Shown here in pieces: positions 33,365-35,523 of a DNA stretch of 64,000 nt (the stretch's first letter is position 1; each line of letters starts with the position of its first letter). The notes beneath the pieces were generated by a model, which made no database searches, was not told the DNA's origin, and saw only the letters and a program-made list of their open reading frames with translations. Source of the DNA: Microbacterium sp. (GTDB taxonomy: Bacteria; Actinomycetota; Actinomycetes; Actinomycetales; Microbacteriaceae); contig NZ_JAPSLI010000002.1 in NCBI RefSeq assembly GCF_031180975.1, positions 248,001 through 312,000 of the forward strand. Direction: 5' to 3'. Made by a program: the position numbers and the translations under genes.

Positions 33365-34449
33365 GCACCACCACCATCTCCGTCACCGGACAGGACGCGT
33401 ACGACATCACGGTCGGCCGAGACATCCTCGATCGTGTGTCGCAGGCGCTCGCCCCGTCGGTGCGCAAGGTGCTCGTCGTGCACCCGCCGACCCTCGCCGA
33501 GCGCGCCGCGCGCCTGCGCGAACGCCTGCTCGCCGACACCGGCGACGGCCCGCGCGAGGTGCTGCTCGCCGAGATCCCGGATGCCGAGCAGGGCAAGCGC
33601 ATCGAGGTGGCCGCGTTCTGCTGGCAGGTGATGGGGCAGGCGGACTTCACCCGCACCGACGCCGTCGTCGGGTACGGCGGGGGAGCGGTGACCGATCTCG
33701 CCGGGTTCGTCGCGGCGACCTGGCTGCGCGGCGTGCAGGTGGTGCAGGTGCCCACCACGGTGCTCGGGCTCGTCGACGCGGCCGTGGGCGGGAAGACCGG
33801 CGTGAACACGGCGGAGGGCAAGAACCTGGTCGGTGCGTTCTGGGCGCCGCGCGCGGTGATCGGCGACCTCGACGAACTGGCCAGCCTCAGCCCCAACGAG
33901 GCGACGGCCGGCTTCGCCGAAGTCGTCAAGGCCGGATTCATCTGGGCACCCGAGATCCTCGACATCATCGAGGCCGACCCGGCACGCGCCGTCGACACCA
34001 CCACGGACGAGTTCCGCCGCGCCGTGGAGCTCGCGATCGACATGAAGGCGAAGGTCGTCTCCAGCGACTTCCGCGAGGCCGGGCAGCGGGAGATCCTCAA
34101 CTACGGGCACACCCTCGGCCACGCCATCGAGCACGCCGAGCGCTACCGCTGGCGGCACGGCGCCGCCATCTCGGTCGGCATGCTGTACGCCGCCGAGCTG
34201 TCGCGGCTCGCCGGGCGGCTGTCGGATGCCGCGGCCGAGCGCCACCGCACCGTCCTGGAGTCCCTGGGCCTTCCCACCTCGTACCGCGCCGGCGCCTGGC
34301 AGCAGCTGCTCGCCACCATGCAGCGCGACAAGAAGGCACGCGGCGGCATGCTGCGCTTCATCGTGCTCGACGACATCGCCAAGCCGACCGTGCTGCAGGC
34401 GCCGGACGAGTCGCTGCTGTTCGCCGCCTACCAGGAGGTCGCGGAGTGA
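33361..34449 (+). CDS. aroB: 3-Dehydroquinate synthase
   Basis: Second step of the shikimate pathway, NAD- and metal-dependent. The 362-residue protein has VGYGGGAVTDLAGFVAATWLRGV, VPTTVLGLVDAAVGGKTGVNTAEGKNLVGAFW, the metal ligands in FAEVVKAGFI and LNYGHTLGHAIEHAERYRWRHGAA. ATG 33361 overlaps the aroK stop and is preceded by AGGAAGGAACAGG. Confidence 0.97.
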   Translation: MSTTTISVTGQDAYDITVGRDILDRVSQALAPSVRKVLVVHPPTLAERAARLRERLLADTGDGPREVLLAEIPDAEQGKRIEVAAFCWQVMGQADFTRTDAVVGYGGGAVTDLAGFVAATWLRGVQVVQVPTTVLGLVDAAVGGKTGVNTAEGKNLVGAFWAPRAVIGDLDELASLSPNEATAGFAEVVKAGFIWAPEILDIIEADPARAVDTTTDEFRRAVELAIDMKAKVVSSDFREAGQREILNYGHTLGHAIEHAERYRWRHGAAISVGMLYAAELSRLAGRLSDAAAERHRTVLESLGLPTSYRAGAWQQLLATMQRDKKARGGMLRFIVLDDIAKPTVLQAPDESLLFAAYQEVAE

Positions 34450-34943
34450 CGGCCGTACGGCGCATCCGCGCCGACGAGTGGCGGCAGGCGAAGGCGCTGC
34501 GCCTGCAGGCGCTCGCGGACCCCGTCGCGGACCTGGCCTTCCTCGAGACGCTGGACAACGCGTCAGCCCAGCCGGACGAGTTCTGGCAGGAGCGCACCCG
34601 CAACAGCGCCGACGGCGACACCGCGGCGCAATTCGTCGCCCTCACGGCCGACGGCACGTGGGCCGGCACGACGACCGTGCTCGCCGACCGCGACCGTGCG
34701 GACTCGGGCCTGGTCGTCGGCGTGTACGTCGCCCCCGAGCACCGCTGCGCGGGCCTGATCGAGGCCCTCCTCGATGCCGCGGCCGACTGGGCGCAGGGGC
34801 GCGGCTGGTCCGCGCTCATCCTGGAGGTCCATGTCGACAACGCCCGTGCCGTGTCGGCGTACGAGCGCTGCGGGTTCGTGCGCACCGGTGAGCTCACCCA
34901 GCACGTCAACGGCACCGAGTACGTGATGCGCCGCGCGCTGTAG
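34446..34943 (+). CDS. GNAT-family N-acetyltransferase
   Basis: This 165-residue protein is a GNAT acyltransferase. The acetyl-CoA loop corresponds to VVGVYVAPEHRCAGLIEALLDAAADWAQGRGWSALILEVHVDNARAVSAYERCGFVRTGEL. The usual Q/RxxGxG/A loop reads HRCAGL. Substrate is unknown. GTG overlaps the aroB stop (GTGA), so it is translated within the aro operon, although it interrupts the usual aroB-aroQ adjacency. Confidence 0.9.
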   Translation: MTAVRRIRADEWRQAKALRLQALADPVADLAFLETLDNASAQPDEFWQERTRNSADGDTAAQFVALTADGTWAGTTTVLADRDRADSGLVVGVYVAPEHRCAGLIEALLDAAADWAQGRGWSALILEVHVDNARAVSAYERCGFVRTGELTQHVNGTEYVMRRAL

Positions 34944-34948
34944 TCACC

Positions 34949-35034
34949 GTTCACAACTCAGGAGAAACCGGCCGATATCCGCGGATATCGGCCGGTTTCG
35001 CGTCAGCGGGCCGGGTTGTTCCTGAGTTGTGAAC
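34949..35034. repeat. Nested palindromic element (15-bp outer, 36-bp inner)
   Basis: Outer inverted repeats GTTCACAACTCAGGA (34949-34963) and TCCTGAGTTGTGAAC (35020-35034) match perfectly. Inside, positions 34964-34999 form a perfect 36-bp palindrome, each half reading GAAACCGGCCGATATCCG and its complement, with no loop. A 20-bp unpaired part (35000-35019) follows before the right outer arm. It begins 6 bp after the GNAT stop and ends 48 bp before aroQ. It could terminate transcription, but outer repeats flanking an inner palindrome also resemble a REP- or MITE-like mobile element. No open reading frame is inside. Confidence 0.85.
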
Positions 35035-35082: not shown

Positions 35083-35523
35083 GTGACCTCCCGACGCCTC
35101 CTCCTCGTCAACGGCCCGAACCTCAACCTGCTCGGCACCCGGGAACCGGGGATCTACGGCTCCGCCACCCTGGCCGACGTGGAGCGCCTCACCGCGGATG
35201 TCGCCCGCGAGCTCGGCTACGAGCTCCGCGCCGTCCAGAGCAACCACGAGGGCGTCCTCATCGACGCGATCCACGCCGCCCGCGAGGACTGCGCCGGCAT
35301 CGTCATCAACCCCGGCGGTCTGACGCACACGTCGGTGGCGCTGCGGGACGCCCTGACCGGCGTGGGTCTGCCGTTCGCGGAGGTGCACATCTCGGACGTG
35401 TACGCCCGCGAGGAGTTCCGTCACTTCTCGTACCTGCACGACGTGGCGGCCGTGCGCGTGGTCGGTCACGGCGTCGACGGGTACGCCGAGGCGGTGCGGG
35501 AGCTCGTCGCCAAGATCGGCTGA
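35083..35523 (+). CDS. aroQ: Type II 3-dehydroquinate dehydratase
   Basis: Third step of the shikimate pathway. GTG 35083 gives 146 residues, the family length, starting just before [21 protein letters not shown], which carries the catalytic Arg and Tyr. [30 protein letters not shown] and [14 protein letters not shown] (catalytic His) follow. An upstream ATG at 35029 would add residues encoded by the palindrome arm and is rejected. Confidence 0.95.

Follow-up and report, generated by a model that had tools for sequence, protein, structure and literature searches.

The 86-bp sequence between a GNAT-family gene and aroQ in the window (the whole analysed stretch of 64,000 nucleotides from a Microbacterium sp. 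genome, called the host genome below) is one gene-less copy of an element of near-fixed length that is dispersed in the genome. Judging from sequence comparison and predicted folds, it probably (about 0.6) serves as the paired docking site of a predicted AbiEi-Vsr endonuclease that would loop the element and occasionally spread it. The traits conserved among the copies are the end sequence, the length and the helical phasing; the sequence of the interior is not conserved. The features are listed in Table 1.

Table 1. Coordinates of the element, its parts, the adjoining genes and the nuclease gene; positions are those of the window except in the last line.
Feature	Position	Strand	Remark
Left 15-bp terminal inverted repeat GTTCACAACTCAGGA	34949..34963	+	In 27 host elements, at most 4 mismatches per end
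36-bp perfect loop-free palindrome	34964..34999	.	Interior subtype
Asymmetric 20-bp interior remainder	35000..35019	.	Read from sequence
Right 15-bp terminal inverted repeat TCCTGAGTTGTGAAC	35020..35034	-	
Whole 86-bp element, solo (gene-less) copy	34949..35034	.	Predicted cognate nuclease gene outside the window
GNAT-family gene (name from the earlier note)	34446..34943	+	Stop 5 bp ahead of the element
aroQ (name from the earlier note)	35083..35523	+	Predicted start codon, read from sequence
Nuclease gene of the host genome	G000:C1:134645-135604 (locus L361:1501-2460)	-	Between two elements, outside the window

We confirmed that the outer repeats GTTCACAACTCAGGA and TCCTGAGTTGTGAAC are exact inverted complements, and that they enclose the perfect loop-free 36-bp palindrome and the 20-bp asymmetric remainder, all as described in an earlier note made from the letters of this stretch. 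The element ends 48 bp before the predicted start of aroQ. As single-stranded RNA it gave a folding energy of -61.7 kcal/mol (z -7.75 against dinucleotide shuffles), and no terminator-like match (a hairpin followed by a T run) was found around the window copy. The sole Rfam match, to MIR918, was below threshold (31.9 bits against 268) and was taken as an artefact of the palindrome. Among the 30 genomes compared, the site upstream of aroQ was occupied in this one only: an AACTC-type end was present in none of the 29 relatives within 260 bp upstream of aroQ, nor, at the five loci L181, L187, L190, L205 and L209, in the 1500 bp ahead of the gene. A GNAT gene also lay at most 400 bp upstream of aroQ in 7 of the 29 relatives, the gap measuring 29–55 bp in six of them and 144 bp in the seventh; in the window it is 148 bp. 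The earlier note had looked to such orthologues for empty sites; relatives lacking the end were found, and a clean empty-site junction was not.

The 14-base end TTCACAACTCAGGA had 36 exact occurrences in the 3.23-Mb host genome and 55 when as many as two mismatches were allowed (0 for the reversed-pattern control). These ends pair up into 27 elements of 85–87 bp, both ends being perfect in 12 of them, so the sequence is not unique in its genome, and it does not look like a simple terminator. The window element had 93% identity to the copy at C13:644374, which is inverted. Only three host copies belong to the subtype with the 36-bp palindrome, namely the window copy, C13:644374 (exact) and C1:10793 (degraded, 89%), and the palindrome is missing from the other 24; it is not the palindromic core that defines the element. 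The host copies showed no orientation bias with respect to their neighbours (8 between convergent and 6 between divergent genes, n = 26), and outside the host genome 71 copies lay between convergent genes versus 18 between divergent ones (p 1e-8). The elements are extragenic, a cruder count placing 12 of 94 inside a predicted frame. Annotation of 40 neighbour proteins gave no single theme; several neighbours of host copies were sugar-metabolism genes.

The length of the elements was nearly constant. In the species scan, which allowed 80–92 bp, the 81 exact matches measured 84–91 bp and 79 of them fell within 84–88 bp: 84 bp (2 matches), 85 (16), 86 (35), 87 (23), 88 (3), 90 (1) and 91 (1). The 231 elements that we collected, a set that took 83–89 bp only and left out L132 (91 bp) and L158 (90 bp), were 84–88 bp long, and 145 of them measured 86 bp. 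The 56-bp interiors of the host copies had a mean identity of 41% (29% when shuffled) and shared A/T patches near positions 17–19, 28–29 and 38–39 and at the mirror positions; the window interior belongs to this set, with patches every ~10.25 bp. The best A/T period in the host genome was 10.25 bp (power 6.5), and at 10.3 bp the power was 6.48 versus 0.89 (sd 0.18) in random sets of 26 windows. This phasing recurred in other Microbacterium and in Microcella, and in Plantibacter the periodicity was weak (power z 0.9, near chance; phase z -4.7). Measured from centre to centre, 71 bp separate the two ends, or 6.9 turns at 10.25 bp. We read the phased interior as selection for bending or looping of the DNA. 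A hairpin RNA as a family-wide trait was rejected: against shuffles, the interiors folded with a mean z of -1.3 and a median of -0.9 in the host genome and with a mean of -1.2 and a median of -0.7 elsewhere, and only a minority folded strongly.

A scan for pairs of CAACTCAGGA in one genome per species returned 79 stretches. Of these, 77 came from Microbacterium, Plantibacter, Microcella, Yonghaparkia, Salinibacterium, Agromyces, Cryobacterium, Schumannella and Rhodoglobus, genera of the family Microbacteriaceae. The remaining two came from an actinomycete MAG and from a Nitrospirae MAG (L159); the latter match was taken as chance or contamination, and its 85-bp element is still counted among the 231. 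Viral contigs gave 0 element matches. A slightly degenerate pattern was matched exactly, once or more, in 85 of the 295 genomes searched in the genus, and its reversed control had no match. End types varied by lineage and genome, with GTTCAC, GTCAAC, GTACCC or CGCCAC before AACTC and AGGA, CGGA, CTCA or AGCA after it; both arms of an element were alike as a rule, and some genomes had at least two end types. Elements often stood in tandem, some 20–90 bp apart (L101, L109, L164, L090, L077, L139, L324 and L312), sometimes with two different end types side by side.

Of the 231 elements, 118 had 700-bp flanks that were both homologous to the flanks of an element found in a different genome. Among these 118 are tandem copies, elements of close species and those of one or more displaced loci (the nuclease locus L062/L288/L103 is one); some of the compared G genomes also appear identical to assemblies under named records. 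Distant orthologous element pairs did not align internally. The conserved-flank sites point to slow turnover, perhaps with some of the copies retained because they have a function. One site was kept in nine genomes (L078:4905-4990 with L092, L267, L273, L282, L293, L298, L304 and L308) and separates, in the host genome, a LacI-family gene from a galT-like gene. The conserved palindromes TGTTGACGTTACCA and TGTTGACGTGAACA in its interior resemble LacI-type operators, and its ends vary by genome.

The nuclease protein of the host genome is predicted to fuse an AbiEi-fold DNA-binding part to a nuclease of the Vsr / I-Bth0305I (EDxHD) type. Residues 16–180 have a predicted AbiEi/Rv2827c-like fold, and the nuclease half combines a predicted Vsr-type fold with conserved catalytic-type residues. 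Pfam gave weak matches to AbiEi_4, DUF559 and MTES_1575, at or below cut-off, PADLOC returned weak AbiEi models and one PDC-S37 and nothing else, and an NCBIfam search gave no match. The gene is neighboured by a penicillin amidase and an alpha/beta hydrolase; no DUF1814 (AbiEii) toxin is adjacent to it at the host locus. Homologues numbered 1–7 per genome in the 12 genomes searched. The MTES_1575 domain has been described as a Vsr-type REase (PMC3710099), and PMC7319586 reports that AbiEi binds inverted repeats and bends DNA and that Rv2827c binds four repeats.

We found an inverted-repeat pair with the same arm on both flanks of 21 out of 30 nuclease homologues (those of the matches in the 12 genomes that were given as loci) versus 0 out of 30 aroQ loci; when flanks were exchanged between loci as a control, 1–3 out of 30 had a pair. 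The host gene was missed in this count because it overlaps its element. A looser scan detected a pair at 23 homologues (none at 7) versus 1 of the 30 aroQ loci, and among 24 further close homologues 18 had a pair. In the length controls, same-arm pairs were present at 12 of 30 homologues for 83–89 bp, 7 of 30 for 63–69 bp, and 0 both for 98–104 and for 113–119 bp. The pairs at 63–69 bp led to the finding that in other nuclease subfamilies there is an inner set of half-sites, ~20 bp away from the outer set, or the units are shorter. The flanks of L376, L383 and L387 carry four half-sites, with the inner pair ~20 bp (two helical turns) from the outer pair. A blind inverted-repeat scan revealed an 87-bp element on each side of a second host paralogue, both with an end of another type, GTGACGGATCCCGGA, and another host paralogue had one possible dispersed copy among the matches listed (C13:52502-52586).

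Similar proteins had similar arms (Mantel r 0.28, 1/5000; r 0.29, 22/5000 without the AACTC class). At loci fetched for their elements, all nine homologues found had an element at most 145 bp away; these came from Microbacterium, Plantibacter, Yonghaparkia and Microcella, the host and G098 included. Flanking and dispersed ends agreed best within genomes on average (12.66 of 15 positions versus 11.52; 1/720 permutations), an agreement that held in 3 of 6 genomes taken singly and failed in G098, G001 and G284. Elements were present in 29 of the 33 genomes with a homologue at E 1e-80 or better versus 56 of the 262 others, a comparison (n = 295) that ignores shared ancestry. Since elements beside the gene itself count in these figures, the fairer comparison is that of genomes with at least three elements (18/33 versus 27/262; Fisher 1.5e-8, uncorrected for ancestry). 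Thirteen genomes with at least five elements had no homologue at E 1e-80; three of them had one at 1e-60 and ten had none. One of these ten, G094, had 17 exact-pattern elements and a homologue only as fragments (46% and 30% identity), and the stretch G094:C1:753973-754508 is a fragmented remnant of a homologue of the host nuclease.

At one syntenic locus the nuclease unit occurs in some genomes, is lacking from others and is displaced in still others. The hydrolase that adjoins the host nuclease gene was found in 22 out of 26 genomes: the nuclease gene followed it in nine (G065, G098, G270, G284, G001, G034, G209, G100 and G005), lay between amidase and hydrolase in the host genome only, and was absent, with the downstream gene adjacent, in six (G092, G130, G083, G002, G029 and G022), gene order being ambiguous in 6 of the 22 (G033, G021, G014, G307, G089 and G004). 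The AACTC scan at the nuclease locus of G209, G100 and G005 detected no element; looser scans picked up an AATTC-type pair in G005, a single element of that type in G209 and, in G100, one weak element. No clean empty-site junction was seen, and the target-site duplication that the earlier note had suggested looking for did not appear (0 perfect at 5–10 bp).

The organisation of the family parallels that of REPINs. As in REPIN-RAYT systems, extragenic repeats are built of an inverted pair of conserved ends (16 bp for REPIN) at constant distance around a less conserved spacer, matching repeats flank the nuclease gene (here at 21 of the 30 homologues), and repeats also occur in genomes without the gene (PMC3116915 and PMC8049555). 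The protein here has an AbiEi fold and a Vsr-type nuclease instead of the Y1 transposase of REPIN-RAYT, and the interiors are helically phased and not, in general, hairpins. The GTAG or CGTC end tag of REP sequences (PMC3733652) is nearly missing here (5 of 462 arms contain either). The Y1 (HUH) transposase PF01797 was detected in 0 of 12 element-bearing genomes and in 5 of 14 control genomes, E. coli included. With no Y1/RAYT gene in these 12 genomes the family is not REP/RAYT, though organised alike. The REP- or MITE-like element of the earlier note is borne out as a dispersed repeat, and it does not look like an ordinary MITE. Dependence on an unlinked protein, which that note had imagined as a transposase, is very likely; the candidate is the AbiEi-fold/Vsr-type endonuclease, with no Y1/RAYT in view.

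Other known systems resemble the family in part. With AbiEi/Rv2827c of type IV AbiE toxin-antitoxins it shares the predicted fold and inverted-repeat DNA sites, and AbiEi is reported to bend DNA (PMC7319586); here, however, the AbiEi-like part is fused to a nuclease, the host locus is without a DUF1814 toxin, the arms are 15 bp with 56 bp between them instead of 23 bp with 3 or 13, and the sites are dispersed genome-wide, unlike the AbiEi/Rv2827c operators. I-Bth0305I and Vsr have in common with the host protein the predicted nuclease fold and the catalytic-type residues, but in contrast to I-Bth0305I homing the gene stands alone beside dispersed gene-less elements. MITEs are likewise short, with terminal inverted repeats and gene-less copies, but here no target-site duplication was seen, the interior is free in sequence and the candidate partner gene encodes a predicted AbiEi-Vsr protein. 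In the literature searched, a scope with most subscription papers outside it, we found no description of a nuclease-plus-repeat pairing, no joining of AbiEi with DUF559, of DUF559 with transposition or of RAYT/REP sequences with Actinobacteria, and no MITE reported for Microbacterium; none of the terms Actinobacteria, Microbacterium, Clavibacter and Leifsonia turned up when PMC3733652 was searched for them.

The reported binding and bending by AbiEi (PMC7319586) and the Vsr-type assignment of MTES_1575 (PMC3710099) suggest a mechanism of end binding, looping and nuclease-driven copying. The AbiEi-like half would bind each 15-bp end, and two protomers, placed on the same face by the 71 bp (6.9 turns) between end centres, would close a tight loop with the A/T patches facing inward. 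The nuclease half could then act either at a target or on the ends once they are synapsed, and the element would be copied by repair, giving rare spread, as is thought for RAYT with REPINs. More tentatively, at somewhat less than even odds, AbiEi-EDxHD nucleases may form several paralogous lineages in one bacterial family, each with a private end sequence, that maintain and spread ~86-bp elements whose interiors are selected as nucleosome-like bent DNA for a tight two-protomer loop; the REPIN system would then have been re-invented with a DNA-bending antitoxin fold, as a previously undescribed class of mobile repeat. No repeat family tested was a match in enzyme class, end rules and phased interior. 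The proposed pairing would provide a candidate role for a protein class so far marked only by weak AbiEi_4/DUF559/MTES_1575 Pfam matches, and would add a second, independent route by which dispersed palindromes associated with a nuclease can persist in bacteria over long times. Near-constant length combined with 10.25-bp phasing, in an interior otherwise free in sequence, would be clear selection on DNA shape. Protein-DNA specificity can be tested directly on the paralogues, which have end sequences of their own, and the occupied, empty and displaced sites open the question of why genomes keep such repeats to tests in laboratory isolates.

The main rival reading, rather unlikely though worth serious attention, is that the AbiEi-nuclease uses the elements as operators or chromosome-architecture sites, binding and looping them to control its own gene and those nearby, and that they move rarely or never. 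The 118 elements with both flanks conserved, although distant orthologues do not align inside, would fit such sites, as would the site kept in nine genomes around LacI-operator-like palindromes, the 6 of 26 host copies between divergent genes and the several neighbours in sugar metabolism. AbiEi proteins are also reported to autoregulate through inverted repeats and to bend DNA (PMC7319586). Against this, convergent placements prevail elsewhere (71 versus 18, p 1e-8), the nuclease gene has an element on its downstream side too, the 40 annotated neighbours have no common theme, and the near-duplicate at an unlinked site, together with gene units that are present, absent or displaced, implies movement. 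A regulatory or chromosome-structure role may hold for some copies.

We consider it very improbable that the family consists of bidirectional transcription terminators at gene ends: the strong RNA stem of the window copy and the convergent bias outside the host genome agree with that function, but no terminator-like match was found around the window copy, the host copies, with 8 convergent and 6 divergent placements, have no preferred orientation, the folding of the interiors exceeds that of shuffles by a moderate amount only, and a terminator needs neither 10.25-bp phasing nor constant length. A side role in termination may exist. Least probable of all is an ordinary MITE family moved by a conventional transposase, with the nuclease nearby by coincidence. 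Terminal inverted repeats, short size and dispersed copies are what such a family would have, but most of the interiors cannot be aligned although ends, length and phasing persist, no target-site duplications were seen, and the nuclease association recurs at 21 of 30 homologues with different end types.

Two sequence motifs recurred inside elements. The interiors of Plantibacter have in common an inverted pair, placed inward of the ends and similar to GGCGTGTC ... GACACGCC (L104, L118, L121, L135, L146, L150, L160 and L169), and the words GGCGTGTC and GACACGCC also occur in the L343 elements of the host genome, which are of a different subfamily. A hairpin close to AAACCGGCCGAT...ATCGGCCGGTTT is present in the window copy, in the host copies L075:4874 and L061:4793, and within elements of L106, L137, L140, L083, L087 and L310 (several species), as if one cassette were exchanged between elements.
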